Source: an uncultured beta proteobacterium
Lineage (GTDB): Bacteria > Pseudomonadota > Gammaproteobacteria > Burkholderiales > Burkholderiaceae_C
Length of the DNA stretch: 64,000 bases
Assembly: GCA_903909815.1 (NCBI GenBank)
Contig: CAIVXG010000024.1
Coordinates: 1 to 64,000 of the forward strand
Direction of reading: 5' to 3'
Position 1 is the stretch's first letter. Each line of letters begins with the position of its first letter. Shown piece after piece: positions 42,370 to 58,624 of this stretch. The notes under the pieces were generated by a model. It was given only the letters and a program-made list of their open reading frames with translations. It did no database searches and had not been told where the DNA came from. A program made the translations under genes and the position numbers.

Positions 42370-43793
42370 CTCGCGTCACCGCCCAGCCCCAGCCGTATGA
42401 GCTTCATGCGCAACCCGACCCGGGTCAAACCGAGTTCGTCCGCGACATGGGTCTTGTTGCCGTGGTGGCGCGCCATGGCCGCACGCAGCAGTTGCGCCTC
42501 AACCCGCTCCAACTGGTGTTTCAGCAGAGAAGAGTCCTCGCCAGCGCTGTCGCCGGCTACAGCGCTGGCGTGTGGTGGCTGCCGCACACGCGGCGACAGC
42601 AGCTCGGCCGCCAGGGTCGGCCCGTCGCCCAGCGCGAGCGCACGCCGAACCTCGTTCTGCAGCTCGCGCACATTGCCCGGCCAGGCGTGACCCTCAAGGC
42701 AGTGCATGGCCTGATCCGACATCTGGCGCCCCTTGAGCGCCGACTTGCTGAGCATCTCGCGCACGATAGGTGCAATGTCCTGCGGCCGCTCGCGCAGCGC
42801 CGGCAGATACAGGGTGATGCCGGCAACGCGGTAGTACAGGTCTTCACGAAAGCGTCCGCTCGCGACGTCGGCCTCCAGATCGCGGTTCGTAGCCGCGATG
42901 ATGCGCACGTCCACTGCTACCGGGCGCGGGCTGCCTACGGGCCGCACCTCGCCCTCCTGCAGCACGCGCAGCAGCTTGACCTGAAAGGCGGCCGAGGTCT
43001 CGCCGATTTCATCCAGAAACAGCGTGCCGCCATCGGCCTGCTGGAACAGACCGATGCGGGATTCGATAGCGCCGGTGAAGGCGCCGCGCTTATGACCGAA
43101 GAGCTCGCTTTCGAGCAAGGTGTCGGGCATGGCGCCGCAGTTCTCCACCACGAACGGCTGCTCCGCACGCGCGCTGGCGTAATGAATGGCGCGCGCCAGC
43201 AATTCCTTGCCGGTGCCCGACTCGCCCGTGATCAACACCGGCAGGTCGTGCGGGGCAATCTTTTCGGCCAGTGCGCAGACCGCGTTCAGGGGGCTGTCGC
43301 TGGCACGTGTGAGCCGGTCGAATCCGGCTTGCGCCTTGGCCTTGAGTCGCAGGTTCGCCACGCGCAGCGCCAAGTGCTCGGGACTGGCGCGCAGCTCCAG
43401 TGTCAGGCGCTGGTTCTCCTGCTGCAAGCGCCACAGCTCGGCCGCGCTTTGCAGGGTCAGCAGCAGCTGATCCGGATGCCACGGTTTGAGCAGGTACTGC
43501 CAGATGCCCGCTTCGTTGATGCCGGCGATGATGTCCTGCGCCTCGGTGTAGCCCGACAGGATCAGCCGCACCGTATCCGGCCAGCGCGCACGCACGCCGC
43601 GCAAGAACTCCACGCCCGAGCTGCCCGGCATGCGCTGGTCCGACACCACGATCTGCACGACCTCGCGCTCCATCACCGCCAGCCCTTCCTCGGCCGAGAC
43701 GGCGGTGAAGACGCTGAAGTGGTCGTCCAGCGTGCGTCGAAGCGTCTCCAGCGAGCGCTGCTCGTCGTCCACCACCAGCACCGACAATGGCAT
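42366..43793 (-). CDS. hoxA: NtrC-family response regulator HoxA
   Basis: A 475-residue sigma-54 activator of hydrogenase genes. The receiver domain has VVDDEQ (7-12) and Asp 52 in SDQRMPG; the AAA+ domain has Walker [12 protein letters not shown], the sigma-54 contact loop GAFTGA and Walker [12 protein letters not shown]; the C-terminus has the Fis-type [21 protein letters not shown]. In Ralstonia the unphosphorylated form activates. I use the ATG at 43793; the upstream open frame is not conserved. It lies at the end of the hyp run, 196 bases after hypX, so it may be partly controlled by the operon it activates. Confidence 0.93.
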
Positions 43794-43989: not shown

Positions 43990-45702
43990 TCATGGCACAA
44001 CCCAGCCCAGCTCGCGATGGCGTGCCAGATGGCGCGGCGTCCAGGAGGCCGGCGACTTGCGCACGAAGTGGTGGCGCGCCACGTGGTAGCTCGGATCGAA
44101 GCCGTAGAAGTTTCGGCGCATCTGCGCCAGCTCTTCTTCGCGGTACGTGGCCAGCGGCTTGGCCGCTTCATCGCGTGCGCGCGTTTCGCGTTTGGCGGTG
44201 ATGCGTTCGTTCCAATCGACATGATCCGCAAGCTGTGCCGTGCGCTGCGCCACTTCATGCCGAAATTTCTGGACGTCGCCCGGAACACAGGCATCGCTGA
44301 AACCGATCTCCAGCGCGCGCTGGGCCGTCAAGGGCTGGCGATCGCGCATGATGGCCTTGGCTGCGTCCTCACCCAGGCGCCGAGGCAGGGAGTAGGTCCA
44401 GTATTCCGAGCCGTACAGGTTGCCCATGTTCTTGTAGTGCGGGTTCAGCATCACCGCCGCGCGCGCCCACACCTGGTCGGCGGCGCGCGCCAGAAAGCAA
44501 CCGCCGGCCCCGGTGTTGCCGCCCAGGGCCGCCACTGTGATCTGGTTTTCGGTGGTGAGGAGTTCCAGCGTCAGGTCGTTCATGGCGTTGATGTTGCGCC
44601 AGGATTCGTCGGCTGCGGAGCCGCCGCTCAGGCTCGCGGCTTCGATCACGTTCAGGTGGATGCCGTTGCACCAGAAATCACCACCGCCCATGAGCACCAG
44701 CACGCGCACGGGGCGCAGTTTGGCCCAGGCCAGTGCCGCCTGTAATCGCGCGCATTGTGGGGTTGACATAGCGCCGTTGTAGCACTCGAAATGCAAAAAA
44801 CCCACTGCGCCATCTTCTTCGTAGGCGATGTCCTGCCAGGTCGCGGCGTCACTGCGCCACCAGCTGTGCATTGGCGCCTGCGGCAACGCCGCCGCTTCAG
44901 CCTCGAAGGCCAGCGTGGCCGGCAGCTTGATGCCGTCAGGACGCTTGACGTGCCCGATCCAGACCGCGCCGTCGACGGTGGCGCGCAGCAACGCGGTCTC
45001 GCGCCGCGCGATCACCGCGCCCGGCGCGCCGCGCAAGACGCCTTCAGGCCAGGCGTCAAACAGATGGCAGGGCTGTTCGAACAGGCTGTCTGCCACACCG
45101 GGAAAACCGTCGGCCGCGCGGATCTTGCGCAGCACGGTGGCGCTGTCGTCGCGCTGCCAATCCAGGCTGCGGTCCGGCTGCTTCATCAGCGGGCGCAATC
45201 GTCCCAGCACGTCGGTCAAGTTCGCCAGCGCCTGTGGCAGGAACTCGCCCGACTCGAAACGCTGCACCGCCTGTAGCACCGCGGTGGTCGCCGCTTGCGT
45301 CACTTCGTTGCGATACACGCTCGACTTTTTCGTCAACGGCATGGGGAAACTCGCGCTCGCCCAGACCGGCCCCGCGTCCATTTCGGCCTCGGCTTGCAGC
45401 ACCGTCACGCCCCACTCCGATGCGCCCTCCTGGATTGCCCAGTCCAGCGCAGAGGGGCCTCGGTCGCCAACAACGCCGGGGTGCACGATCAGACAGACGT
45501 GGCGCGACCAGACCGACTCAGGGATGGTGCGGCGCAGATAGGGCGCGACGATGAGGTGAGGGCGAAACAGAGCCACGGCTTCATCGGTGACGGAATCTGC
45601 GATGTCGAACTCGATCGAGATTTCGTGCCCGCGCTGCGACAACTCGGCGCCCAGCCGCTGGGTCAGGCTGTTGAAGGCGTGGGTGAGCAGCAGAATCCGC
45701 AT
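43990..45702 (-). CDS. hypX: HypX, CO-ligand synthesising hydrogenase maturase
   Basis: A 570-residue two-domain protein. The N-terminal half resembles formyl-THF hydrolase/transferase (MRILLLTHAFNSLTQRLGAE, HPGVVGDRGPSALDWAIQEG), the C-terminal half an enoyl-CoA hydratase/crotonase (LMGGGDFWCNGIHLNVIEAA, LGGNTGAGGCFLARAADQVW). HypX (HoxX) makes the active-site CO from formyl-THF under aerobic conditions. It starts 2 bases after hypE stops. Its presence argues that hydrogenase is assembled in air. Confidence 0.93.
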   Translation of the reverse strand: MRILLLTHAFNSLTQRLGAELSQRGHEISIEFDIADSVTDEAVALFRPHLIVAPYLRRTIPESVWSRHVCLIVHPGVVGDRGPSALDWAIQEGASEWGVTVLQAEAEMDAGPVWASASFPMPLTKKSSVYRNEVTQAATTAVLQAVQRFESGEFLPQALANLTDVLGRLRPLMKQPDRSLDWQRDDSATVLRKIRAADGFPGVADSLFEQPCHLFDAWPEGVLRGAPGAVIARRETALLRATVDGAVWIGHVKRPDGIKLPATLAFEAEAAALPQAPMHSWWRSDAATWQDIAYEEDGAVGFLHFECYNGAMSTPQCARLQAALAWAKLRPVRVLVLMGGGDFWCNGIHLNVIEAASLSGGSAADESWRNINAMNDLTLELLTTENQITVAALGGNTGAGGCFLARAADQVWARAAVMLNPHYKNMGNLYGSEYWTYSLPRRLGEDAAKAIMRDRQPLTAQRALEIGFSDACVPGDVQKFRHEVAQRTAQLADHVDWNERITAKRETRARDEAAKPLATYREEELAQMRRNFYGFDPSYHVARHHFVRKSPASWTPRHLARHRELGWVVP

Positions 45703-45704
45703 GG

Positions 45705-46769
45705 CTAGCAGATGCGCGGCAACTGGTCACCCGCCAGCCAGTCGACGATGCGCCGGCCGCCAAAAGCCGTTGTGAGCTGCACGAAGTGGTGCGTGTCGGC
45801 GATCACTTCGCCGATGACGGCAGCCTCGATCCCGAGCGGATGGGCGCGCATCGCCGCCAGCAGCGCCGCGGCATCGACGGCGGCGCAGACGGCAATCAGC
45901 TTGCCCTCGTTCGCGACGTTGAGCGGGTCCAGGCCCAGCAGTTCGCAGGCGGCTGCCACCACCGGCTTCACGGGGATCGCCTTCTCCTGCAGCATCATGC
46001 CGACACCGGACTGTCCGGCGATTTCGTTGAGCGTGGCCGCCAGCCCGCCGCGCGTCGGATCGCGCAGGCAGCGGATGTCGGCGTGTGTGGCGAGCATGGC
46101 TGAAATCAAGCCGTTGAGCGCGGCCGTGTCGGAAACAATGGGTGCGTCAAAGCTCAGGTTCTCGCGCTGGCTCATGATGGCCACACCGTGGTCGCCCATG
46201 GAACCCGAGACCAACACCACATCGCCCGGACGTGCCCGCGCGCCGCCGAATTCGATGCCCTCGGGCAGGACACCGACGGCGGTGGTGGTGATGAAGACGC
46301 CGTCGCCCTTGCCGCGTTCCACCACCTTGGTGTCGCCCGTCACCACCGGTACGCCCGCGGCCTTGGCCGCACCGGCCATCGATTCGACGATGCGTGCCAG
46401 ATCGCTCAAGGGCAATCCCTCTTCCAGGATGAAGCCTGCTGCCAGGTACAGTGGCGTGGCGCCCATCACCGCGACATCGTTTACCGTGCCGTGTACCGAG
46501 AGGCAACCGATGTCACCGCCGGGAAAGAACAGCGGCGACACCACGTGGCTGTCGGTGGACATCACCAAGCGCGCCGGCTTGCCGTCGAGCACCGGCGCGG
46601 GCAGCACGGCGCCGTCGTTGCCCTGGCCCAGGTACTCGTTGCCCAGGTGCTTGGCAAACAATTCGGAGATGAGTTGCACCATGGCGCGCCCACCGGAGCC
46701 ATGCGTCAGATCGACGCGGCCGTGTTTCAGGTCGAGCGCGCGCACGTAACCTCTTTTGACTTCAACCAT
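45705..46769 (-). CDS. hypE: Hydrogenase maturation protein HypE
   Basis: HypE dehydrates a carbamoyl group, received from HypF on its C-terminal cysteine, to the thiocyanate that supplies active-site cyanide. The 354-residue product ends in LPRIC, the required terminal Cys, and has the ATP-binding segments DLTHGSGGRAMVQLI, VVTGDTKVVERGKGDGVFI and DPTRGGLAATLNEIA. The ATG at 46769 is coupled to the hypD stop by a TGATG overlap. Confidence 0.96.
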   Translation of the reverse strand: MVEVKRGYVRALDLKHGRVDLTHGSGGRAMVQLISELFAKHLGNEYLGQGNDGAVLPAPVLDGKPARLVMSTDSHVVSPLFFPGGDIGCLSVHGTVNDVAVMGATPLYLAAGFILEEGLPLSDLARIVESMAGAAKAAGVPVVTGDTKVVERGKGDGVFITTTAVGVLPEGIEFGGARARPGDVVLVSGSMGDHGVAIMSQRENLSFDAPIVSDTAALNGLISAMLATHADIRCLRDPTRGGLAATLNEIAGQSGVGMMLQEKAIPVKPVVAAACELLGLDPLNVANEGKLIAVCAAVDAAALLAAMRAHPLGIEAAVIGEVIADTHHFVQLTTAFGGRRIVDWLAGDQLPRIC

Positions 46770-47896
46770 CAGTTCATGTCCTTGTAGCGCCCGTAACTGT
46801 AATGCGCGGCGCACGCGCCTTCACTGCTGACCATGCACGACCCCACGGGGTTTTCGGGCGTGCAGACGGTGCCGAAGATCTTGCAGTCCTGCGGGCGCTT
46901 CACGCCGCGCAAAATCGCGCCGCATTCGCAGGCCTTGTTGTCCGGCACGGTCTTGTAGTTGATCTCGAAGCGACGTTCGGCGTCGAAAGCGGCGTATTTC
47001 TCGCGCAGCTTGAGCGCCGAATACGGCACGATTCCAAGCCCGCGCCACTCGAAGTCGCTACGCAACTCAAACACCTCGGCCACGCGGTCCTGCGCCTTGA
47101 GGTTGCCGTCGCGCGTGACGGCGCGCGCGAACTCGTTTTCCACCACGGCTCGGCCCTCGTTCACCTGGCGCACCAGCATCAAAATCGCCTGCATCACGTC
47201 CAAGGGCTCGAAGCCCGCGATCACCACGGGCTTTCTGTATTCCTCGGCGAAGAATTCATAGGGTCGGCTGCCTATCACCGTGGACACGTGGGCCGGACCG
47301 ATGAAGCCGTCGATCGGCACCGTGCCCCACTGGCGTACTTCGGGTGACTCCAGGATATGGCTGATGGCCGCGGGCGTGAGCACGTGGCAGGACAGCACGC
47401 TGAAATTCTGCAACCGCTCCAGGCTGGCCTGCTGCACCGCCAGTGCAGTGGGCGGGGTCGTGGTCTCGAAGCCGATCGCCAAGAACACCACTTCGCGCTG
47501 CGGGTTGTCGCGCGCGATCTGCAGCGCATCCAGCGTCGAATACACCATGCGGATGTCGCCGCCGCGCGCCTTGGCCCTTAACAGCGACAAGCCATCGCTG
47601 GCGGGAACGCGCAGCGTGTCGCCGTAGCTGCACAGGATCACGCCGTGCTCCAGCGCGAGTCGGATCGCCATGTCGATGCGTCCGATCGGCAGCACGCACA
47701 CCGGGCAACCGGGACCGTGCACCATGGTGACGTTGGCGGGGAGCAAATCGCTCAGACCGTAGCGCGAGATCGCGTGCGTATGGCCGCCGCAGAACTCCAT
47801 GAAACTGTAGTTGCGCCCCGGCTGCACCAGCGCGTCGATCTTGTCGGCAATCGTCCGGGCGACTTCGCCGTTGCGGAATTCATCTATGTATTTCAA
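46769..47896 (-). CDS. hypD: Hydrogenase maturation protein HypD
   Basis: The iron-sulfur scaffold on which Fe(CN)2CO is built with HypC. The 375-residue protein has FMEFCGGHTHAISRYG with the essential Cys, GPGCPVCVLP, GFETTTPPTA, and C-terminal [4Fe-4S] cysteines in NKACECGAILRGVKRPQDCK and GSCMVSSEGACAAHY. The start is TTG at 47894-47896, overlapping the hypC stop (TTGA); the next ATG would cut conserved residues. Confidence 0.95.
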   Translation of the reverse strand: MKYIDEFRNGEVARTIADKIDALVQPGRNYSFMEFCGGHTHAISRYGLSDLLPANVTMVHGPGCPVCVLPIGRIDMAIRLALEHGVILCSYGDTLRVPASDGLSLLRAKARGGDIRMVYSTLDALQIARDNPQREVVFLAIGFETTTPPTALAVQQASLERLQNFSVLSCHVLTPAAISHILESPEVRQWGTVPIDGFIGPAHVSTVIGSRPYEFFAEEYRKPVVIAGFEPLDVMQAILMLVRQVNEGRAVVENEFARAVTRDGNLKAQDRVAEVFELRSDFEWRGLGIVPYSALKLREKYAAFDAERRFEINYKTVPDNKACECGAILRGVKRPQDCKIFGTVCTPENPVGSCMVSSEGACAAHYSYGRYKDMN

Positions 47897-48135
47897 GAAG
47901 CCACCTGCAGCGCATCCTGCATCTGCGTAAACAGCGTCAGGGTCTTTGCAGCCTCTTCCGGGTCAAGCCGGGACAGCGCGTAACCCACATGCAGGATGAC
48001 GTAGTCGCCGACCTGAACGCCGTCGAGCAGCGCGAGTGAAATTTCCTTCTTCACGCCGCCCAGGTCGACGATGGCGAAATCGCCCGCAGGGCCGATGCCG
48101 ACTTCTATGACTCTGACCGGAAGTGCAAGACACAT
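47893..48135 (-). CDS. hypC: Hydrogenase maturation chaperone HypC
   Basis: An 80-residue OB-fold chaperone starting MCLALPVRVIEV; Cys 2 is the functional residue that binds iron and contacts HypD and the large-subunit precursor. The family pattern VGDYVILHVGYALSRLDPEEA is present. One base separates it from the hypF stop. A second family member (hupF) at 52739-52993 probably serves hybC specifically. Confidence 0.96.
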   Translation of the reverse strand: MCLALPVRVIEVGIGPAGDFAIVDLGGVKKEISLALLDGVQVGDYVILHVGYALSRLDPEEAAKTLTLFTQMQDALQVAS

Positions 48136-48136
48136 G

Positions 48137-50443
48137 TCAACGCTCCAAAGAATTCATCGCCACCCAGGCCTGCCCCAGCGCAAGCCCTGCGTCGCCGGGA
48201 CAGAGCCGCTGTGGCGCCAGCACATTGAGGCCCTGGGCTTCCAGGCTCTGGCGTAGCTTAAGCGAAAGCAGAGAGTTCAGGAAGCAGCCTCCGCCCCAGG
48301 CCAGCGTGCGTAAGTCCTGCTGCTGCGCCGCCTGAGTTACCCACTCGCGCAGGGCCGCCACGAGCGTGGCGTGAAAGCGCGCCGCAGCCTCGTCCACGTT
48401 GGACGCGCGGTCCAGCGACGCGAGCAGGGGCAACAGGTCGAGCCGTCCATCGCCGTCGATTGACCAAGCGTTCTCCAGCGGGAGCGGCCAGCCGTGCGAC
48501 TCGATGTGACGCGTGGCGGCCTGCTCCAGAAACATCGCCGCCTGCGCTTCGTACTTCATGTGCGTGCTGAGATCCAGCAGACCGGCGGCGGCGTCGAACA
48601 CGCGGCCCAAGCTGGAACTGCGCGGGCAGTTCAACTGACGCTCCAGCATGGCGGCGACGGTGTCGGCGCCTCTGGCCTGAAAGCGCGCGCCGATCTCCCC
48701 GTTGCGACCCAACTCATGCAGCACCGACGCCGCCATGCGCCAGGGCTCGCGCGCGGCCTTGTCGCCACCGGGCAGGGCCAGCGGTCGCAGATGGCCCTGG
48801 CGGGTGGCCAGGGGGCCATCCAGGCGCAGCAACTCCCCGCCCCAGGCTTTGCCATCAGAGCCCAGTCCGACGCCGTCCAGCGCCAGCCCCAGCACCGGGC
48901 CAAGGTGCCCATGCTCGGCGCAAGTGGCGGCGATGTGGGCGTGGTGGTGCTGCACCGCGATGGTGGGCAGGCCATGGCGCGCAGCAAAGGCGATGGCCGC
49001 GCGCGTGCTGTGGTCGTCGGGATGCAAGTCGTGTGCCACCAGGTCGGGCTTGACCTCCAGCAGTTCCAGCAGGCGCTGCACCGTCTCGTCCTGAAACGCA
49101 CAGGTGGCGGCGTTGTCCAGATCGCCGATGTGTGGCGACAGGAAAGCCTCGTCGCCACGCGTGACGCAGACCGCGTTTTTCAGGTGTGCGCCGAAGGCCA
49201 GCACCGAGGGTCCGCTGCGTGCCAGTGCGATCGCGACGGGCGCATAGCCGCGGCTGCGCCGGATGAATTGGAACCCGTCGCCCGAGCGCCGCAGCACCGA
49301 GTCGTCACAGCGCGCGACCACGTCACGATCGTGGTCCAGATAGGCATCGGCAATGCCGGCGAGCCGCTCCCGCGCTTCCAGGCCGCCGCGCACGATGGGC
49401 TCGCCGCCCGGGTTGGCGCTGGTCATCACCAGCAGCAGTTTCTGCGGTTCTGCCAGCCAGGCCGTGCCGCCCGGTCTCCCGGCGGCTTCATGGAACAGCA
49501 GGAAATGCATGGGTGTGGTCGGCAGCAGCGCGCCAAGCCAGATCAGGCCGGGCGCCACGCCGGCGAGAGCCGCTTCGGCGCCGGGCTGTCTTCGCAGCAG
49601 CACCACCGGGCGCTCGCGCCCCTCAAGCAGAGCGCGCTCGGAGTCGTCAACCTGTGCGTACGGCACCAGGCTGTTGGCGTTGGCGCTCATCACGGCCAAC
49701 GGCTTTTCCTCTCGGTTCTTGCGGGCACGCAAACGCGCCACGGCGTCCGCGTTGCGCGCGTCGCAGGCCAGATGAAAGCCACCCAGTCCCTTGATGGCGA
49801 CGATGGCGCCGGCTTGCAGCAGGGCGAGCGTGGCAGCGAAGGGATCTCCGGGGATGTTCTGGCCCCGCGCATCGAGCAGTTCGAGTTGCGGTCCGCAGAC
49901 CGGGCAGCAGGTGGTTTCAGCGTGAAAGCGCCGGTCGGCGGGGTTGCGGTACTCGCGCTCGCAATTCGGGCACAGCGCAAAGGACGCCAGGCTGGTCTGC
50001 GGTCGGTCATAGGGCAGGGCGCGCGTCACGGTGTAGCGCGGGCCGCAGTGGGTGCAGGTGATGAAGGCATGGCGCCAGCGCCGATCGGGCGGACTAAACA
50101 ACTCGGCCAGGCAGTCGGGACAGGTGGCCACGTCCGGACCGATGGCGGTGCTGGAGCGGCCCTTGACGCTGTCCCTGATGATGAATGCGGTCAGCGTTTC
50201 GGGCTCTGCCTGCTGCGCCTGAACCGAGTCCACCCGCGCCAGCGCCGGTGCATCGCTGCGCAGGCGTTGTACCAGCGCGTCCATCTGAGCGGCATCCCCC
50301 TGCGCGAAAATCTCCACGCCGTGCGCATCGTTGCGCACCCAGCCCGCGAGTTCAAGTTGCTGCGCCAAGCGCCAGACGAAGGGCCGAAAGCCTACGCCCT
50401 GGACGATGCCTGTGACCCGGATGCGACGCGCGACGGGGGTCAA
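48137..50443 (-). CDS. hypF: Carbamoyltransferase HypF
   Basis: HypF uses carbamoyl phosphate and ATP to transfer a carbamoyl group to HypE. The 768-residue protein contains an acylphosphatase domain ([20 protein letters not shown]), two zinc-finger pairs (CPDC...CTHC and CPNC...CCPVC, about 105-185), a YrdC-like domain (about 195-390) and a Kae1-like domain with [14 protein letters not shown]. The start is a TTG at 50441-50443, which overlaps the hypB stop as TTGA; family members start at this point and no ATG or GTG is nearby. Confidence 0.94.
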
Positions 50444-51375
50444 GTCGCAGGCCGCTGCAACTGCGCTTCCAGTTGCGCAATGCGCGCCTTGAGCGTGTCC
50501 ACCGTGTGCTGCTTGGCCGAGCGCGCGCTGGCCAAGCCGTCGCGCAGGAAGGTCAACCACTCGTCCATGCCCGCGCCGCTGGTGGCGCTCACCTGGAGCA
50601 CTCGGATATGGGGATTGACGCGCCGCGCATAGGCAATGGCCGCGTCCACGTCGTAATCCAGATGCGGCAGCAGGTCGACCTTGTTCAGCAGCATCAAGCT
50701 GGCAGCGCGAAACATGTCGGGGTACTTGATGGGTTTGTCTTCGCCTTCGGTGACCGACAGGATCACCACTTTGTGCGCCTCGCCCAGGTCGAAGGCTGCG
50801 GGGCACACCAGATTGCCGACGTTTTCGATCATCAGCAGAGAGTCTTCTGGCAGGGTCAGTTGCTCCATGGCGTGTGCCACCATGTGCGCGTCCAGGTGGC
50901 AGCCCTTGCCCGTGTTGATCTGGATCGCAGGCGCGCCGGTGGCTCGGATGCGCTGCGCGTCCTGGCTGGTCTGTTGATCGCCCTCGATCACAGCAATGGC
51001 CTGGCCCTTGAGCAGCGTGATGGTCTTGCACAGCAGCGTGGTCTTGCCCGAGCCCGGGCTGGACACCAGGTTCAGCGCAAAGATGCCGTGCTCGGCGAGG
51101 GCCTGGCGGTTCTTGTGCGCGTAGGCGTTGTTCTTGGCCAGGATGTCCTGCTCAATCTGCACCATGCGATTCGGCGTCAGGCCCGGTGCGTGGGAATGCG
51201 TCGGCGCATGGCTGTGATCGTGATCATGGTCATGGTCATGCGGATGGGCGTGCTCCCCATGCTCATGGTCGTGTGCATGGCGGTGGCGCGTTCCGTCTGC
51301 ATGCACGTGCTCGTGCTCGGCGTTTGCACCGTCAATCGTCACTTCACCGGGGCCGCAGCCGCATGTCGTACACAT
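50440..51375 (-). CDS. hypB: Nickel-inserting GTPase HypB
   Basis: A 311-residue GTPase delivering nickel to the large subunit with HypA. The N-terminus [11 protein letters not shown] is the high-affinity Ni site (CxxCGC). A His-rich stretch from about residue 20 to 66, with many HDH and HSH repeats, is a nickel-storage region. The G domain begins near 107 with [13 protein letters not shown], and the Cys-His metal site is in [11 protein letters not shown]. Its stop overlaps hypF. Confidence 0.96.
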
Positions 51376-51405
51376 TCATTGCTCCAACTTGTTCGTATCA
51401 TTTGA

Positions 51406-51446
51406 GGACAGAGCAAAACTCGCTTCGCGTAGTTCTTGGTCTGTCC
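51406..51446 (-). other. Hairpin in the hypA-hypB spacer
   Basis: GGACAGA (51406-51412) and TCTGTCC (51440-51446) can pair around a loop that contains a second short stem (CGCTTCGCG). It occupies most of the 80-base gap between hypA and hypB, the second-largest gap in the hybO-hypX run. There is no U-run, so it is not a terminator; it may be a processing or stability element. Confidence 0.4.
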
Positions 51447-51455
51447 CGCAATCTC

Positions 51456-51797
51456 TCAGGATACTTCCAGTTCCTTCACTCGCATCTCGGTCCCGCCCGT
51501 GACCTGCAGCTGAAAACCGCCGCACTGCGGGCACTCGCCAAAAACCTCGCTCATGGCGACCGTCTGCGCGCAGGCCATGCACCATCCCGTCCCCGGCAGC
51601 GCGATGATTTCCAGCCGAGCACCAGCGGCCACGCTGTCCCGCGTCACGGCGTCAAAGCAGAACTTCATGGCCTCGACTTCGACACCGGAGAGTTGGCCGA
51701 TTTCCAGCCACACGGCGACCACCTTGTCGAATTTCTGCTCGCGCGCCGAATCCTCGATCAGTTGCAGCACGCCTTCGGCCAATGACATTTCGTGCAT
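51456..51797 (-). CDS. hypA: Nickel metallochaperone HypA
   Basis: A 113-residue protein that brings nickel to hydrogenase with HypB. It begins MHEMSLAEGVLQ, His 2 being the nickel ligand, and has a structural zinc site in WCMACAQT and CPQCGG. The ATG at 51797 is used because His must follow the initiator Met; an upstream ATG adds 10 unrelated residues. The hemerythrin gene ends 10 bases before it. Confidence 0.95.
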   Translation of the reverse strand: MHEMSLAEGVLQLIEDSAREQKFDKVVAVWLEIGQLSGVEVEAMKFCFDAVTRDSVAAGARLEIIALPGTGWCMACAQTVAMSEVFGECPQCGGFQLQVTGGTEMRVKELEVS

Positions 51798-51807
51798 GGG
51801 AAATACG

Positions 51808-52203
51808 CTATTGCCCGCTGCGCACAAAGGCGGCGAAACGCGTGTCGCGCGTGGCGATGTGCTGGCCGATGAAGGTCAGTGCACTTTGCGCCTTGCCCGC
51901 CACCAGGGACGATCGGCCTGCGGCATGGTCGGCGGCGATGGCGCTCAACGCTTCGAGCATCTGCTGGTGATCTTCCACATGGTCTTCGTAGTCGTCGTAG
52001 CTCTTGAGCCGCATCAACAGCTCTTCCGACATGAAATGCGCTTCGCTGTAGGCGCTCAACTGCTCCAGGATCTCGCTCACCGCGGCGGCGTCGCGCTGTT
52101 CCTGCACCGCTTGACACAGCGCCTGCAGCAGGCCGAGCTGGACTTCGTGCTCGCGGTCGGTCTGGGCGTTGGAATCGGCGTTGAATTCAGAAATGTTCGA
52201 CAT
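51808..52203 (-). CDS. Hemerythrin-like diiron protein in the hydrogenase operon
   Basis: A 131-residue, probably four-helix protein with all seven hemerythrin ligands: His 19, His 56, Glu 60 (HFMSE), His 75 and His 79 (HVEDH), His 115 and Asp 120 (HIATRD). Such proteins bind O2 reversibly at a diiron site, or sense O2, NO or iron. No signal peptide, so it is cytoplasmic. It lies between hybE (32-base gap) and hypA (10-base gap) on the same strand, so it is almost certainly co-transcribed with the hydrogenase genes. A role in O2 scavenging or protection of maturation is inference. Confidence 0.88.
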   Translation of the reverse strand: MSNISEFNADSNAQTDREHEVQLGLLQALCQAVQEQRDAAAVSEILEQLSAYSEAHFMSEELLMRLKSYDDYEDHVEDHQQMLEALSAIAADHAAGRSSLVAGKAQSALTFIGQHIATRDTRFAAFVRSGQ

Positions 52204-52235
52204 GGTGGTTTTCCGCTGCTGTTACTGCGTCAATG

Positions 52236-52742
52236 TCATCCGGGCGTGGAACGCTTCAGGGAGAAGAATCCGCGCCGCGACAAGTTGGGCAAATCTGGGG
52301 TCTCTTTCGCCGCAGCGACGCCGGGCGCGGGCTGCGGCGGCGTCAGCAAGCCGCTGATGGACGCGCGCGCCGTCAGGCTGGCCTCGGATTGCGTGGTGAA
52401 TTTCCCCATCGGCGAAAACAGCGAACAGCTCTGGTACTCGCCCAGTTCTTCTTCAGCGCCGCCGAGAAAGGCAAAGTCTCCCGCGGGAAAGTGCACAAAG
52501 CGGCGCTTGTTCTCGCCGGTGGAAACCCAGTTCTCGGCGCTGCCGGGGATGAGCAGCAGGCTCATGCACCAGGGCGTGACGACGATACCCAACCAATGCC
52601 CCTGCCAGCGCTGAAAATCCACGGCCTCGACCGACAACGCCGGGTTCAGGATCGGCACATCGACCATGTGGTCACGTTGGATGCGAAAGAACGCCCGCTC
52701 TACCGCGTCCGTGGGGTCGATGCGGTGAATTCGACAACTCAT
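52236..52742 (-). CDS. hybE: [NiFe]-hydrogenase assembly chaperone HybE/HupJ
   Basis: The 168-residue protein matches the HybE/HupJ/HoxT family: VPILNPALSVEAVDFQRWQG, LGIVVTPWCMSLLLIPGS, SCSLFSPMGKF. In E. coli HybE delivers the Hyd-2 precursor to Tat export and folding. It has a C-terminal extension of about 45 residues beyond the core. The ATG overlaps the hupF stop by four bases. Confidence 0.9.
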   Translation of the reverse strand: MSCRIHRIDPTDAVERAFFRIQRDHMVDVPILNPALSVEAVDFQRWQGHWLGIVVTPWCMSLLLIPGSAENWVSTGENKRRFVHFPAGDFAFLGGAEEELGEYQSCSLFSPMGKFTTQSEASLTARASISGLLTPPQPAPGVAAAKETPDLPNLSRRGFFSLKRSTPG

Positions 52743-52993
52743 GCGGCTTCGCCCCAGTTGCGATCCTGTGCGCCCTGCGCCATCAGCTCCTGCATCAGCG
52801 CCAGCGCCTCCTCGGCGCGCGCCACCTCGACGCGCTCGAAGGCAAAGCCGCCGGCCTGTATCAGCAGGTAGTCGCCCACGGCAACTTCTTCGTCCAGCAG
52901 CAGCAGGCTGACCTCGCGCGTCTGCCCAAAACACTCGGTGAGCGCCGTGCCGTCACGCACTTCAATCACACGCGAAGGCGCTGCCATGCACAT
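52739..52993 (-). CDS. hupF: HypC-family chaperone HupF/HybG/HoxL
   Basis: An 84-residue HypC paralogue starting MCMAAPSRVIEV with the functional Cys 2 and VGDYLLIQAGGFAFERV. Members encoded beside uptake-hydrogenase genes (HupF, HybG, HoxL) serve that large subunit. It starts one base after the hupD stop and overlaps hybE. The CMAAPS start differs from HypC's CLALPV, consistent with the HupF branch. Confidence 0.9.
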   Translation of the reverse strand: MCMAAPSRVIEVRDGTALTECFGQTREVSLLLLDEEVAVGDYLLIQAGGFAFERVEVARAEEALALMQELMAQGAQDRNWGEAA

Positions 52994-52994
52994 G

Positions 52995-53486
52995 TCAAGC
53001 CACCGCCAGCGCCAAGGCTTGCAACACGTAGCCACGCGCCAGGAGTTCGGCTGCCGCCATTTCGGCCAGCACCGGCACCTGCTCGGCCACGGTGGGTGTC
53101 ATCTCCATGCCCAGCTCCAGCGTGATCGGCTCCACGCCCAGCACGATGATCTCCTTGGGCATGGTGTCGAGCAACTCCAGGCTGGCGAGCACATCGGGCA
53201 AGGCGATCTGGTGCGGCGAAAGCTTGTGGCGAAAGAAGACTGGAATCTCGTCGCCCGCTATCTTCACCACGGTGCCCGGGGCGGCACCGGTCTTGACGAC
53301 GTCGATGACGATCAGGAAGTCCAGGTTTGACAGGTCCTCGATCATCTCCATGCCCGAGGTGCCGCCGTCGATGACGAGCACATCGTCAGGCATGCGGTAG
53401 GCCTGCTCCAGCGCCTCGACAGCGCGCACGCCCGCCGCTTCGTCGCTCAGGATGGTATTGCCGATACCTAGAACCACTGCACGCAT
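52995..53486 (-). CDS. hupD: Hydrogenase maturation endopeptidase (HybD/HupD/HoxM)
   Basis: A 163-residue protease that removes the C-terminal peptide of the large subunit after nickel insertion. The start AVVLGIGNTILSDEAAGVRA and the nickel-sensing residues Glu 16, Asp 62 and His 92 match the family set. Its target here is HybC, which has a 15-residue tail; HoxC has none. It lies downstream of the hybC terminator. Confidence 0.93.
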   Translation of the reverse strand: MRAVVLGIGNTILSDEAAGVRAVEALEQAYRMPDDVLVIDGGTSGMEMIEDLSNLDFLIVIDVVKTGAAPGTVVKIAGDEIPVFFRHKLSPHQIALPDVLASLELLDTMPKEIIVLGVEPITLELGMEMTPTVAEQVPVLAEMAAAELLARGYVLQALALAVA

Positions 53487-53502
53487 AGTTGCTCTGCCTC
53501 AC

Positions 53503-53535
53503 AAAATAAAAGAGGGCCGACATCGGTCGACCCTC
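53503..53535 (-). terminator. Intrinsic terminator between hybC and hupD
   Basis: On the minus strand GAGGGTCGAC, loop CGAT, GTCGGCCCTC is followed by TTTTATTTT. The 10-bp stem has one G-U pair. It lies 22 bases after the hybC stop and 17 bases before the hupD ATG, inside an otherwise continuous operon. It probably makes the accessory genes less abundant than the structural genes. Confidence 0.8.
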
Positions 53536-53556
53536 GCATGGTAACTCCGCTTCTTG

Positions 53557-55263
53557 TCAAACTGCACGCACTGAGATGGCGGTGTCGTTTTCCTTGTCCG
53601 TCAAATGGATGGCGCAGGCGATGCAGGGGTCAAAGGAATGGATGGTGCGCAGCACTTCCAGCGGCTTCTCGGCGTCGGCGATGGGTGTTCCCATGAGCGA
53701 GGCTTCGTAGGGTCCGGGCTCGTCCTTCTCGTTGCGCGGGCACGCGTTCCAGGTGGAGGGCACGACGCACTGGTAGTTCTTGATCTTGCCGTTGTCGATG
53801 ACGACCCAATGCGAGAGCGCGCCGCGCGGGGCCTCGTGAAAGCCCACGCCCATGACCTCGTCCTTGGGAAAAACGGGCTTGTTGAAGGTGGTGAGGTCGC
53901 CCTTGCCCATGTTGGTGAGCAAGGCGGTCCACTGCTCGCTCAGCAGATCGACGTTGACGCAGCAGGTGATGGCGCGCGCGGCGTGGCGACCGATGGTCGA
54001 GTGCATCGCGTCCAGACCGATCTTGGTCTTGGCCAGAGCCGACACCGTGTCCAGCGCGGCCGTAGCGTACGTCGTCGTGGCCGCGTGCCCCGCGGCCAGG
54101 CCGTTGAGCACCCGCGCCAGCGGCCCCACCTGCGCGACCTTGCCGTAGAACGTGGGCGACTTCATCCATGAGTACTTTGCGTCGTCCTTGAAGTCGGTGT
54201 AATTGGGCGTGGTCTCGCCCTTGTAAGGGTGCAGGGAACCGGTCTTTTCGTAGTTGTACCAGCTGTGTTTGACCGACTCTTCCACGCCCTTTTGCCAGTA
54301 CTCGTCGTTGAACGAACTGATGGGTTTGCGCGATGCCAGATTGCCACCTTCGATGAAACCGCCGGGAAAGGCGAACTGCGTGCCCTTGGTATCGAGCGGA
54401 ATGTCGGGCACCGACAGGTAGTTGGTGACGCCCTTGCCGATTTGCGTCCACTCGGGATAAAACGCGCCCACGGCGGCGACGTCGATCAGGTACACGTTCT
54501 TCACGAAGTCGGAGAGTTCGTCGATCCAGCCCTTGATCGCCATCAGGCGCTCGACCGTGAGCACGGCCTGCGAGTCGGTGGCCAGGGGGTTGGCGACGCC
54601 GCCCACGGCCACGTTCTGGATGTGCGGCGTCTTCGAGCCCAGGATGGAGACGATCTTGTTGGCCTTGCGCTGCACTTCGAGCGCCTGCAGATAATGCGCC
54701 ACGGCCAGCAGGTTCACCTCGGGCGAAAGCTTCATGGCCGGATGGCCCCAATAGCCGTTGGTGAAGATGCCCAGTTGCCCGCCGTTGACGAAATGCTTGA
54801 GGCGTTCGTGTACGCGGCGCATCTCGTGCTTGCTGTTCAGATGCCAGCTGGAGAGGCTCTCACCCAGGATGGCGGTCTTGTCGGGGTCGGCCTTGAGCGC
54901 CGAAGTCACGTCCACCCAATCGAGCGCCGACAGGTGATAGAAATGCACGATGAAGTCGTGCACCGAGTGCGCCAGGATGATGAGGTTGCGGATGTACTGC
55001 GCGTTCAGCGGGATCTCCATCTTGAGCGCGTTTTCCACGGCGCGCACCGAGGTGATGGCGTGCACCGTGGTGCACACGCCGCAGATGCGCTGCGTGATGG
55101 CCCAGGCGTCGCGCGGATCGCGCCCGAGCAGGATGAGTTCGACGCCGCGCCACATTTGGCCTGACGACCAGGCTTTTTGCACGTGGCCGTTGTCGACATC
55201 GACGTCAATACGCAGATGGCCTTCGATGCGGGTGATCGGATCGATCGTGATGCGTTTGGACAT
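53557..55263 (-). CDS. hybC: Hyd-2-type [NiFe]-hydrogenase large subunit
   Basis: A 568-residue subunit close in length to E. coli HybC (567). The nickel ligands are Cys 61 and 64 in RICGVCTTVHA and Cys 547 and 550 in DPCIACAIH. The 15 residues after His 553 (LTDKENDTAISVRAV) form the peptide removed during maturation. The N-terminus MSKRITIDPITRIEGHLRID is canonical. It oxidises H2 at the periplasmic face with HybO. Operon order hybO-hybA-hybB-hybC matches Hyd-2. Confidence 0.95.
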   Translation of the reverse strand: MSKRITIDPITRIEGHLRIDVDVDNGHVQKAWSSGQMWRGVELILLGRDPRDAWAITQRICGVCTTVHAITSVRAVENALKMEIPLNAQYIRNLIILAHSVHDFIVHFYHLSALDWVDVTSALKADPDKTAILGESLSSWHLNSKHEMRRVHERLKHFVNGGQLGIFTNGYWGHPAMKLSPEVNLLAVAHYLQALEVQRKANKIVSILGSKTPHIQNVAVGGVANPLATDSQAVLTVERLMAIKGWIDELSDFVKNVYLIDVAAVGAFYPEWTQIGKGVTNYLSVPDIPLDTKGTQFAFPGGFIEGGNLASRKPISSFNDEYWQKGVEESVKHSWYNYEKTGSLHPYKGETTPNYTDFKDDAKYSWMKSPTFYGKVAQVGPLARVLNGLAAGHAATTTYATAALDTVSALAKTKIGLDAMHSTIGRHAARAITCCVNVDLLSEQWTALLTNMGKGDLTTFNKPVFPKDEVMGVGFHEAPRGALSHWVVIDNGKIKNYQCVVPSTWNACPRNEKDEPGPYEASLMGTPIADAEKPLEVLRTIHSFDPCIACAIHLTDKENDTAISVRAV

Positions 55264-55281: not shown

Positions 55282-56448
55282 TTAAGTGGCCAGCTTGGCG
55301 CCTTCCCGCGGCAGAACGGGGAAACGGCGCGTGATGATGATGTATCCGAGGACCTCCACCGAGAACATCCCCAGCGTCACCATGACTTCGGTGAAAGACG
55401 GGAAATAGCTCCAGCCGGATCCGGTGAAATGCTGGTAGCCGATCAGGAAGCCGTTCAGGCGCAGCAGGCTGCCGCCCAGCATGATGGCCAGCCCCGCCAG
55501 AAACAGCCGCGCCGGGTTGCGCCGCGCCACGACGTTGCCGATGAGAAAGAACGGGGCGACGAAGCAGAGGTTTTCCACCCAGAACGACAGCGCCACCAAA
55601 CTGGGTGTGAAGGCTGCGCCAAGAGCGCCGCGGATCAACAGATCGGCGAAGCGCACGACCAAGTAGACCGCCAGCACACCGAGCATGATTTTCGACATCG
55701 GATTGAGCAAATGCATTTCGATGCTGCGCCGGTAGCTCGCCGCTGCCACGCAGGATTCGAACAGCACCACGCCGTAGCCGATGATGATGGCCGTGAGCAA
55801 ATAGATCAGCGGCACGGCGGGCGTCTGCCACAGCGGATTCACCTGGGCGCCCATCACCACCAGCATGGTTCCCAGTGACGACTGGTGCATCATGGGCAGC
55901 AGGATGCCCAAGGCGATGAAGAAGAAGATCGCCTTGTTGAGCTTCTTCTTGATGTCGTTCAAGCCCAGTTTTTCCAGGAACACCGGCGCGAACTCGACCC
56001 ACATCACCAGGATGTAGACGGTCACGCACACCGCGACTTCCAGCATCACCGAATTCGGGTTGGCGTAACTGGGCCAGAAGATGTGCCAGAAGTTCCACCA
56101 GCGACCCAAGTCGAAGAAGATGCCGCCGCCGGCCAGCGTGTAGCCGAACAGGCTGGCCAGCAAGGCCGGTCGCACCAGCGGGTGGTACTCGCCCTTGTTG
56201 AAGATGTAGACCAGCATTGCCACGGAGAAGCCGCCGCAGGCCAGGGCCGAGCCGATCATCACGTCGACCACGACCCAGATGCCCCAGGAGTAGCCATCGT
56301 TCACGTTGGTGACTGCGCCCAGGCCGAAGACAAAGCGCACCAACAGTATGGACGCCATGATGGCAATGAGCACGCCGCACACCAGGGTGGCGGCGTTGAG
56401 CAGGCTGCCACCGACGGGGGTGGGCGCTGCGTGTTGCGGCTGGCTCAT
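55282..56448 (-). CDS. hybB: HybB, integral membrane quinone-reactive subunit
   Basis: A 388-residue NrfD/PsrC-family membrane protein with about ten hydrophobic segments (for example LVCGVLIAIMASILLVRFVF and YLLTAIIIGYGVVLFESCVA). HybB passes electrons between HybA and the quinone pool and can translocate protons in E. coli. It replaces the cytochrome b (HoxZ/HupC) of O2-tolerant uptake enzymes, which is not seen in the window. The ATG overlaps the hybA stop (ATGA). Confidence 0.93.
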   Translation of the reverse strand: MSQPQHAAPTPVGGSLLNAATLVCGVLIAIMASILLVRFVFGLGAVTNVNDGYSWGIWVVVDVMIGSALACGGFSVAMLVYIFNKGEYHPLVRPALLASLFGYTLAGGGIFFDLGRWWNFWHIFWPSYANPNSVMLEVAVCVTVYILVMWVEFAPVFLEKLGLNDIKKKLNKAIFFFIALGILLPMMHQSSLGTMLVVMGAQVNPLWQTPAVPLIYLLTAIIIGYGVVLFESCVAAASYRRSIEMHLLNPMSKIMLGVLAVYLVVRFADLLIRGALGAAFTPSLVALSFWVENLCFVAPFFLIGNVVARRNPARLFLAGLAIMLGGSLLRLNGFLIGYQHFTGSGWSYFPSFTEVMVTLGMFSVEVLGYIIITRRFPVLPREGAKLAT

Positions 56449-57440
56449 GATTTTTTCTCCCCTGACTCATGGCCAGATGCGTCCTCGTCCTCGTGCACGT
56501 TGCGCTTGGCGATGAAGCCCAGCACGCCCAGCACCGCGATCGGCATCACCATGCCGCCGTAGAGTGAATGCTGGATCGACTCGGACAGGGCAGCCGACGC
56601 GTCGGGTTTGAGGTCAGGCATGCCCACCTTGGCGAAGGTCACACCCGAGAGCTTGAGCACCTGGGTGCCGCCGTATTCATGCTCGCCGTACACGTGCTGC
56701 AAGTACTTGCCCACGGGGGCCTCGTAGCTCTGGTCGGGGCCGCCGATCTTGCCTCTCGGATACCGCGTCTGGTCTCCGGGCTTGAGTGCGATGCGGCGCT
56801 TGGCCTCGAGCAGCAGGTCGGCGGTGCGACCGTAAAGCGTGGCGCCCGTGGGACAGACTTCGGCGCAGGCAGAATAGTGACCGTCCTTGGTGCGGTGGCG
56901 GCACAGTTCGCACTTGCCGATCTTGCCGGTGGGCGAGTCGTATTGATATTTTGGAATGCCGAACGGGCAGGCTACGACGCAGTAGCGGCAGCCCACGCAG
57001 ATGTCGGGGTCGTATCCCACGACGCCGGTAACCGGATCCTTGGTCATGGCGGACACCGGGCAGGCCGAGACGCAGGACGGATCGGCGCAGTGCATGCAAG
57101 AGGTCTTCATGAAGGCGTAGCCGTTGACTTCGGCGTCCTTCGTTTCCATCGTGCCGTTGCGGTACATCTTTATCAGGTTGAAAGTGTGTCCTGAGGTGTC
57201 CAGCGGCGTGTCCCATAAATGGTCTTCCGTGGAAAACTCGGGCGGGTTGTCGTTGGCCACCTTGCACGCCGCCACACAGGCCTTGCAGCCAATGCACAGC
57301 GTGGCGTCGTAGAGCAGACCGAGCGCTTCGGGGGGCCGGGTATGCGTGTCCCGGGCACAGGCCGGGGGCGCAACGACCGCAGCGGTGACCGCAGCGCCGC
57401 CTGCGACCACGCCCTTGAGGAATCCGCGACGGGTGTCCAT
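56445..57440 (-). CDS. hybA: HybA, four-cluster ferredoxin subunit
   Basis: A 331-residue periplasmic electron carrier. It has a Tat signal (DTRRGFLKGVVAGGAAV), then four [4Fe-4S] motifs: CIGCKACVAACK, CMHCADPSCVSACP, CVGCRYCVVACP and CELC...CAEVCPTGA. A C-terminal transmembrane helix (GMVMPIAVLGVLGFIAKRN) anchors it. The ATG at 57440 starts the Tat signal and begins 2 bases after the hybO stop. Confidence 0.94.
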   Translation of the reverse strand: MDTRRGFLKGVVAGGAAVTAAVVAPPACARDTHTRPPEALGLLYDATLCIGCKACVAACKVANDNPPEFSTEDHLWDTPLDTSGHTFNLIKMYRNGTMETKDAEVNGYAFMKTSCMHCADPSCVSACPVSAMTKDPVTGVVGYDPDICVGCRYCVVACPFGIPKYQYDSPTGKIGKCELCRHRTKDGHYSACAEVCPTGATLYGRTADLLLEAKRRIALKPGDQTRYPRGKIGGPDQSYEAPVGKYLQHVYGEHEYGGTQVLKLSGVTFAKVGMPDLKPDASAALSESIQHSLYGGMVMPIAVLGVLGFIAKRNVHEDEDASGHESGEKKS

Positions 57441-57442
57441 GC

Positions 57443-58624
57443 TTACACCTTGGCCTGGTCTTTGGCCTGGCCGTCTGCTTGGGCAGCTTGGGCCTCCTGC
57501 GCCGCGTGCGACAGCCCCAGGTTGCGCGTGAGCATCACCGCTGCGCCTGCCGCCGCTCCAGCCAATGCGGCGAGTGCCGCCGCCGACGCGAAAGAAGCAC
57601 CCTTGCCCTGCTCCTCCACGATGCGTGCGTACTGCAGGGGTGGCGCCACATTGAGCATCTTGGCCACTTGGTGGATGGGTTTGGTGAATCCCACGCCCTT
57701 CTCGGTGCATCCGATGCAGGGGTGTCCGCAGCCCACAGGCCAGTTGTTCTCGCCCGCGTCGCCAAAACCCAGTGTGGAGCAGTTGCCGTAGGTCTCCGGA
57801 CCCTTGCAGCCCAGCTTGTACAGGCAATATCCCTGCCGGTGTCCGGCGTCGCCAAACTCCATGGCAAAGCGGCCCGCGTCAAAGTGTGCGCGGCGCTCGC
57901 AGTTTTCGTGGATCAGGCGTGAGTAGGCGAACTTGGGGCGCCCCAGTTTGTCCACGTCGGGCAACTTGCCAAAGGTCAGAAAGTGCACGACCGTGGCCAG
58001 GAAGTTGTATGGGTTGGGCGGGCAACCGGGGATCGTCACCACCGGCTTGCCCAGTACCTCGGCCACGCTCGAAGCACCGGTGGGGTTGGGGCCAGTGGAA
58101 GGCATGCCGCCCCAGGAAGCGCAGGAGCCGATGGCGATCACGGCGGCCGCGTCAGCCGCGCATTCCTTCACCAGGTCGACGGCGGTGTGGCCGCCGATTT
58201 TGCAGAAGATGCCGTTGTCCTTGACCGGAATCGCGCCTTCGACCACCAGGACGTACTTGCCCTTGTTGGCCGTCATTGCGTCCTTGCGCGCGGCCTCGGC
58301 CTGGTGCCCGGCGGCGGCCATCAGGGTCTCGTGGTAGTCAAGCGAAATCACGTCCAGGATCAGCTTTTCCAGCGTCGGATGCTCGGCTCGCAACAGCGAC
58401 TCGGTGCACCCCGTGCATTCCTGGAAATGCAGCCAGATGACCGATGGCCGTTTGGCCGATTCGATGGCCTTGGCAACCGCCGCCTCCGAACCCGATGGCA
58501 GGCCCATGGTCACTGCCAAGGTGGCACAAAACTGCAAATAGTCGCGCCTCGACATATCGAGACGTCGCTCCACATCGCTCAAGGTCTTGCGGCCCAGGTC
58601 GAAGATTTCATTGAGATTGCCCAT
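57443..58624 (-). CDS. hybO: Hyd-2-type [NiFe]-hydrogenase small subunit
   Basis: The 393-residue subunit has a Tat motif MSRRDYLQF at 24-32, three Fe-S cluster sites and a C-terminal membrane anchor (about 345-365). The proximal cluster motif is ECTGCTES (Cys 70 and 73) and GSCASWGG: the two extra cysteines of the O2-tolerant [4Fe-3S] cluster are replaced by glycines, so this enzyme has the standard O2-sensitive arrangement. It is first in a 15-kb run and has a sigma-54 promoter upstream. Confidence 0.95.
   Translation of the reverse strand: MGNLNEIFDLGRKTLSDVERRLDMSRRDYLQFCATLAVTMGLPSGSEAAVAKAIESAKRPSVIWLHFQECTGCTESLLRAEHPTLEKLILDVISLDYHETLMAAAGHQAEAARKDAMTANKGKYVLVVEGAIPVKDNGIFCKIGGHTAVDLVKECAADAAAVIAIGSCASWGGMPSTGPNPTGASSVAEVLGKPVVTIPGCPPNPYNFLATVVHFLTFGKLPDVDKLGRPKFAYSRLIHENCERRAHFDAGRFAMEFGDAGHRQGYCLYKLGCKGPETYGNCSTLGFGDAGENNWPVGCGHPCIGCTEKGVGFTKPIHQVAKMLNVAPPLQYARIVEEQGKGASFASAAALAALAGAAAGAAVMLTRNLGLSHAAQEAQAAQADGQAKDQAKV

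Follow-up and report, generated by a model that had tools for sequence, protein, structure and literature searches.

In Campylobacter jejuni, the hemerythrins HerA and HerB protect O2-labile iron-sulfur enzymes, and the available text of PMC4257069 describes HerA as preventing O2 damage to these enzymes and not promoting their repair, gives two-hybrid evidence of contact, and states the authors' view that O2 storage cannot outrun diffusion. It is this described function as guards of O2-labile Fe-S enzymes, not sequence, that likens HerA and HerB to the role proposed for the hemerythrin examined here (Hr), whereas their clients are Por and Oor and not a hydrogenase. In hydrogenase assembly, the rubredoxin HoxR/HupI adjoins HupJ, a HybE relative (PMC2907700, Table 5), and PMC4257681 describes it as essential for the aerobic assembly of the MBH. 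Like Hr, a predicted iron protein, HoxR/HupI is small and iron-bearing, adjoining a HybE-family gene, and it serves assembly in air; unlike Hr, it is of the rubredoxin-type Fe(Cys)4 kind instead of diiron, serves the MBH, and lies before rather than behind the HybE relative. For the ancillary factors HupF/HupK (HoxL/HoxV), a shielding of cofactor assembly against O2 has been proposed (PMC12134894), and in this they resemble Hr as proposed here, but they are HypC-like and large-subunit-like proteins and not hemerythrins. The aids to aerobic assembly HoxR, HupF/HupK and HypX are described, in the accessible portions of this literature, for O2-tolerant or aerobically made enzymes, HypX making CO from N10-formyl-THF via formyl-CoA (PMC12134894).

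Among hemerythrins, McHr of Methylococcus and DcrH-Hr of Desulfovibrio have the fold and ligands of Hr but differ in their roles (O2 delivery and chemotactic sensing, respectively) and in sequence (19-24% identity), DcrH-Hr carrying a leucine where Hr has Gln22. Hemerythrin and hydrogenase genes have been mentioned together in other settings: in a methanotroph, hox and hemerythrin genes are both induced by O2 starvation (reported in PMC6222125), and hemerythrin cargo and [NiFe] hydrogenase occur in different encapsulin families (PMC8346489). Methanotroph hemerythrin genes also adjoin aa3 oxidase genes (PMC12810054). PMC4919030 mentions neither hydrogenase nor operon, and the Dechloromonas Hyd-2 cluster, as presented in PMC2907700, runs from hybE to hypC with no hemerythrin, resembling the Hr-free clusters of this analysis. 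No description of a hemerythrin within a hydrogenase operon was found in the available text of the open-access literature searched.

The hydrogenase operon and its hemerythrin

The window, that is, the whole stretch of 64,000 nucleotides analyzed here, carries the following genes on its minus strand, given in gene order:

57443..58624, minus strand: hybO, small subunit, by family search; proximal motif CTGCTE; twin-arginine leader RRDYLQ, read by eye
56445..57440, minus strand: hybA, iron-sulfur subunit, by family search; twin-arginine N-terminus, read by eye
55282..56448, minus strand: hybB, membrane subunit, by family search
53557..55263, minus strand: hybC, Hyd-2-type large subunit, by family search
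52995..53486, minus strand: hybD, maturation protease, by family search
52739..52993, minus strand: hybG, hypC-like chaperone between hybD and hybE, named from its translation; conserved in relatives
52236..52742, minus strand: hybE, hydrogenase assembly chaperone, by family search; constant upstream neighbor of Hr
51808..52203, minus strand: Hr, hemerythrin, 131 aa; ligands His19, His56, Glu60, His75, His79, His115 and Asp120, with Gln22 at ligand +3
51456..51797, minus strand: hypA, nickel metallochaperone, by family search; 10 bases after Hr
50440..51375, minus strand: hypB, by family search
48137..50440, minus strand: presumably hypF (approximate start), from its translation; conserved in relatives
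47893..48135, minus strand: presumably hypC, from its translation; conserved in relatives
46769..47896, minus strand: presumably hypD, from its translation; conserved in relatives
45705..46769, minus strand: presumably hypE, from its translation; conserved in relatives
43990..45702, minus strand: what we take to be hypX, with formyltransferase-like and enoyl-CoA hydratase-like domains
42366..43793, minus strand: what we take to be a hoxA-like response regulator, from its translation; conserved in relatives

The membrane and iron-sulfur subunits exceed the cut-offs of their models (HybB, NF008133, 526.5 with a cut-off of 450; HybA, NF008134, 475.5 with a cut-off of 263), and the Hyd-2 models are the best match for HybC (890.2, cut-off 969) and HybO (520.2, cut-off 659), yet at scores below their cut-offs. 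We assign hybO-hybA-hybB-hybC as a Hyd-2-type (HybOABC) operon. The open frame taken as hypX retrieves only general formyltransferase and enoyl-CoA hydratase matches, all below the curated cut-off. Two hypC-like genes are present on the minus strand, one in the hyb part (52739-52993) and one in the hyp part (47893-48135).

The coordinates, strand and start of the 131-residue frame were confirmed, as was its position on one strand between hybE and hypA, with 32 bases from the hybE stop to the Hr start and 10 bases from the Hr stop to the hypA ATG (51797). The promoter consensus scan over 51300-53600 found none, which is weak evidence. Two terminator-like sites were found on the minus strand, a stronger one of 10 pairs at 53512-53535 and one of 6 pairs inside hybG at 52848-52867, and the scan gave none between hybE and hypA. 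Hr is probably co-transcribed with the operon.

Hr exceeds the cut-offs of the Pfam Hemerythrin model PF01814 (39.4 bits, cut-off 25.3) and of NCBIfam TIGR02481 (63.4, cut-off 51.75), and scores 70 bits, below the cut-off of 84, against the narrower 'bacteriohemerythrin' model NF033749. Its diiron ligand pattern, H, HxxxE, HxxxH and HxxxxD, follows the canonical order, and all seven residues of the predicted site are indeed present and invariant in 28/28 rows of the alignment of the family (A1), which comprises 28 of 31 rows, L021, L029 and L030 being omitted as near or exact copies; L002-L004 duplicate L021, L022 and L026 and are excluded from counts. The stretch around His56, EAHFMSEELLMR, is wholly invariant among the aligned rows, beyond what the ligands need. 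The AlphaFold2 model is a confident four-helix bundle (mean pLDDT 93.4), for which Foldseek returned hemerythrins at all of ranks 1-8, at 19-24% identity, with a best E of 2.2e-3 and none at E 0.001. VIA-align gave a Z of 16.3 for DcrH-Hr (2avk) and 15.3 for 4xpx; because designed bundles tie at 16.1, the fold supports membership of the hemerythrin family without proving it. By sequence, the closest solved structure is the DcrH hemerythrin domain, followed by the weaker matches methemerythrin 1i4y and bacteriohemerythrin 4xpx. Hr, with neither an output domain nor a leader seen in its 131 residues, is a single-domain hemerythrin with a putative diiron site and predicted O2 binding; it would be expected to contain iron and to carry out O2 chemistry. 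The genome of the window holds 11 Pfam hemerythrin matches, 10 of them over the cut-off.

In sipunculid hemerythrin, the O2 pocket involves Leu28, Phe55 and Ile102. Residue 22 of Hr, three after the ligand His19, presumably corresponds to the leucine that lines this pocket, and Hr lacks the hydrophobic leucine expected there, while the other pocket-type residues, F57 and I116, are retained in the 28 rows of the family. Gln22 is found in 28/28 rows of A1 and in six more family members (L021, L029, L030, L062, L063 and L146), or 34/34 in total, whereas all 27 of the order's other hemerythrins read at this position have leucine, as does DcrH-Hr. The residue-22 pattern failed to match L031, L033 and L036 and gave a wrong reading for L042; for these four, Gln22 was taken from A1. 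The distant matches of the first survey, in which some genes are repeated, comprise 0/16 with glutamine, 12 with leucine, and one each with Phe, Ala, Gly and Ile. Elsewhere in the window's genome, ten further hemerythrin loci show one glutamine, two leucines and one phenylalanine at ligand +3, six being unmatched by the pattern; because of this one glutamine (L057), the residue is not wholly private to the Hr family. L057, on contig 5 of the same genome (G000), is a 204-aa open frame. A polar residue at position 22 would be expected to alter O2 reactivity, and Hr may not bind O2 reversibly. What is new at the level of the family is that these hemerythrins form a subfamily with its own genomic partner, hybE, and with Gln22 as a diagnostic pocket change.

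Conservation and evolution of the hemerythrin locus

To find relatives, GTDB species genomes were scanned with the Hr protein alone, which yielded 30 loci in other species at 52-98% identity to Hr of the window, with record titles naming Rhodocyclales, Rhodocyclaceae, Sulfuritalea, Accumulibacter, Propionivibrio, Rhodoferax, Comamonadaceae, Burkholderiales or just betaproteobacteria. The search for hemerythrin genes in hyb operons of other genomes, which the original prediction had proposed, thus revealed a conserved neighborhood: Hr lies directly behind hybE on the same strand in 27/30 relatives, with gaps of -41 to 336 bases, and the remaining three are two unlinked Accumulibacter copies (L028 and L035) and one locus cut by a contig end. 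The next gene is hypA, within 3-39 bases, in 21/30 loci; elsewhere, a second hydrogenase lies between Hr and hypA (L023, L037) or follows Hr without hypA being reached (L033, L036), the contig ends (L034), no hyp gene occurs within the 3.7 kb examined (L039), or hoxA comes directly after Hr (L042). Hr keeps its place beside hybE even in loci where hypA has been displaced or is missing; hybE is therefore the constant partner, and hypA was rejected as the true one. The description of a gene embedded in the maturation operon holds in that Hr is operonic, but its place is better given as behind hybE.

No Hr relatives were found on plasmids (tblastn at 1e-10). Beyond the order, among the best 10-15 candidates per genome at E 1e-20, the only family member other than Hr of the window to emerge from 274 genomes of the class was a distant one (G551, 100.7 bits); its contig carries no hydrogenase genes, and HybE and HybC-like genes occur elsewhere in that genome. 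The corresponding scan of 299 genomes of the phylum gave only the window. A scan for rubredoxin-like motifs behind Hr in six loci gave matches in four, all within hybA or another frame. In other lineages of the order, the place of Hr is filled by an ORF of 367-478 codons that appears HupK-like by eye, located between hybE and hypA in L124, L125 and L126 and between hybG and hypA in L129.

The Hr tree separates the 31 family rows from 25 other hemerythrins of the order (100/100), with the Accumulibacter copies among the operonic ones and the copies of genomes G306 and G162 outside them (88/93, on an unstarred branch, both being long rows); L029, L030 and L146 were omitted, and L067 and L084 were dropped for want of a signature match. 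In the HybC tree built before the same-genus genome G003 (L147) was added, a single branch (91/84) sets the 25 Hr-linked rows apart from the rest, with one change of label. With G003 included, its HybC nests beside the window's group, inside the Hr-bearing rows (99/93), and two changes are then needed to explain the Hr label, carried by 25 Hr-linked rows, where shuffled labels average 15.4. The rise from one change to two led to the rejection of a single unbroken Hr-bearing clade. The HybC trees left out L031, L036, L044, L050 and L140, with fewer than 280 readable residues, together with L141, L142, L144 and G380 (weak HybB match).

The operon of G003 has a HybC 95% identical to that of the window and keeps the gene order through hypX and hoxA, with hybE followed after 11 bases by hypA, leaving no room for Hr; the first survey matched this genome only once, at a distant hemerythrin located elsewhere (E 8.4e-6). 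Since this operon lacks Hr while its HybC is nested among Hr-bearing ones, Hr is optional and the operon can persist after Hr is lost, and the simplest account would be one entry into the operon with one later loss.

The Hr family is under purifying selection. Comparison of the window with its 92%-identical relative gives a dN/dS of 0.088 for Hr, alongside 0.090 for hypA, 0.118 for hybE and 0.024 for hybC, and 12 comparisons, several with saturated dS, give 0.088-0.281 for Hr. That 27/30 relatives, each found independently, repeat the placement of Hr directly after hybE, and that dN/dS is 0.088, puts the arrangement beyond chance. Hr distances correlate with those of seven neighbors (r 0.52-0.82, both Accumulibacter loci left out), most strongly with HybE (0.82), a correlation that shared history alone could produce.

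Association with Hyd-2-type hydrogenases

Hydrogenase genes are present in every Hr genome checked. HybB was found in 9/9 Hr genomes tested, a set chosen from the 30 for odd context or cut contigs and including both Accumulibacter genomes, although in that of L035 it appears only as two sub-cut-off pieces on different contigs; it is also present in three same-genus Hr genomes (G001, G002 and G004). The Accumulibacter genomes, in which Hr is unlinked, carry a more distant Hyd-2 type (HybC 73-74%). In Accumulibacter L035, a long CxxCH-rich, TPR-like gene lies directly upstream of Hr on the same strand; a gene of this kind is also upstream on the same strand in L028, where an opposite-strand ORF intervenes.

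Across 399 genomes of the order, the Hr family, defined by a threshold of at least 142 bits with the next match at 78, occurs in three among the best 10-15 candidates per genome (the window, G306 and G162). HybB occurs in 21 of the 399, including all three Hr-family genomes. With the window set aside, both Hr genomes fall among the 20 HybB genomes of 398 (p = 0.0024, a rough value since the genomes are related). The other 18 of the 21 HybB genomes lack the Hr family among the best 10-15 candidates per genome. Hr and hydrogenase are on separate contigs in G306; in G162, a distance of about 1.8 kb separates Hr, which stands on its own, from hybO, and the ORF that Hr faces is HupK-like by eye.

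The claim that the enzyme is of the Hyd-2 type with an O2-sensitive cluster motif was borne out, the motif being the ordinary and not the six-cysteine one: the small-subunit proximal motif CTGC[ST]E is found in 19/19 readable Hr-linked operons. The same motif occurs in 20/20 readable clusters without operonic Hr (L141 and L142, with only pieces of HybO, are excluded from the counts), so that it fails to explain which clusters carry Hr, and the proximal cluster type was rejected as a discriminator. In L023, L033, L036 and L037, second small subunits carry CTCCSE, which we take to be the six-cysteine, O2-tolerant type. As the CTCCSE hydrogenase comes after the Hyd-2 genes and Hr in these four loci, both enzyme types may share one maturation set.

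Proposed role and competing explanations

We judge it an evenly poised proposal that Hr is an optional, dedicated guard of O2-sensitive Hyd-2 assembly, acting through local O2 or peroxide chemistry in the manner of HerA and HoxR. Hr would be a cytoplasmic accessory factor whose service is confined to one group of Hyd-2-type hydrogenases. Encoded alongside the HybE chaperone, it would protect the O2-sensitive steps, namely cofactor insertion into pre-HybC and the iron-sulfur clusters of pre-HybO, in cells that produce the enzyme under low but non-zero O2. Because HybO and HybA carry twin-arginine leaders and Hr has none, any encounter between Hr and the enzyme would be confined to the cytoplasm, ahead of export, and Hr would presumably act during assembly. 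It may work near HybE/HybC assembly, possibly in contact with HybE, with a diiron site that binds O2 or peroxide and probably reduces it. Such action is placed locally because of the HerA precedent and of HoxR/HupI standing beside the HybE relative HupJ, and it would be local or turning-over rather than a bulk O2 store: the simple O2 buffering once suggested is weakened by diffusion outrunning storage, as argued in the available text of PMC4257069, and by the glutamine at the pocket position. The further claim of a new class of maturation factor, a diiron hemerythrin with an invariant glutamine that would consume O2 or peroxide as the partner of HybE in micro-oxic Hyd-2 assembly, is tentative and on balance doubtful.

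It is unlikely, in our view, that Hr is instead a diiron peroxidase or a detoxifier of NO or peroxide, co-expressed with the hydrogenase and without part in assembly, Gln22 having made a carrier into a reactive enzyme perhaps supplied with electrons from H2. The contrast at residue 22 between the Hr family (glutamine, 34/34) and the hemerythrins of the order (leucine, 27/27) would fit such an enzyme, and parallels exist in the H2-driven reduction of H2O2 described for a hydrogenase-rubrerythrin chimera with a hemerythrin-like diiron site (PMC11926857), in HerA, which seemingly protects against H2O2 too (PMC4257069), and in hemerythrin-like genes of an acidobacterium reported to cluster with nitrate and NO reductase (PMC8787282). 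However, no partner reductase was recognized in the operon, Hr is positioned behind a chaperone gene, and the chimera holds both sites in one protein, whereas the mature hydrogenase here is exported. That Hr might be an O2 or redox sensor informing the maturation machinery or HoxA is suggested by its closest solved relative, the sensor domain DcrH-Hr, and by hoxA being next after Hr in L042; this appears distinctly unlikely for a protein of 131 aa without an output domain, and no regulator adjoins Hr in the other family loci compared.

A role as iron donor or store for Fe(CN)2CO or Fe-S assembly, to which the location among metal-insertion genes and the repair role reported for the diiron protein YtfE (as cited in PMC4257069) lend some color, is very unlikely, given that none of the seven ligands of a stable site varies and that HerA does not aid repair (PMC4257069). 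The loss of Hr from a same-genus operon (G003) and the abundance of hemerythrins, with 11 Pfam matches in the window's genome and 10 over the cut-off, are what a neutral hitch-hiker with no role in hydrogenase biology would predict; we nevertheless hold this to be highly improbable, given the same place in 27/30 relatives, the dN/dS of 0.088-0.281 in 12 comparisons (several with saturated dS), and the co-occurrence with Hyd-2 even where Hr is unlinked. Least credible of all, to the point of being scarcely tenable, is the earlier suggestion that Hr supplies O2 for HypX chemistry. Hr and hypX do share one operon, but HypX uses formyl-THF and CoA in a reaction described without O2 in the available text of PMC12134894 and PMC6802093, and four clusters have hypX with no Hr beside it (L127, L130, L135 and L147), for which reason a link of Hr to hypX was rejected.

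If the proposed guarding of Hyd-2 assembly is true, the association of a hemerythrin with a standard, O2-sensitive-type Hyd-2 would offer a further route to building such enzymes near O2, informing how H2 is used at oxic-anoxic boundaries and aiding the production of hydrogenases in aerobic hosts. One genus with and without Hr in the same operon offers a ready-made natural comparison. The stronger terminator-like site of the minus strand, at 53512-53535 between hybC and hybD, consists of a 10-pair hairpin followed by a T-rich tail, and may act as a partial terminator, reducing expression of hybDGE-Hr relative to hybOABC.
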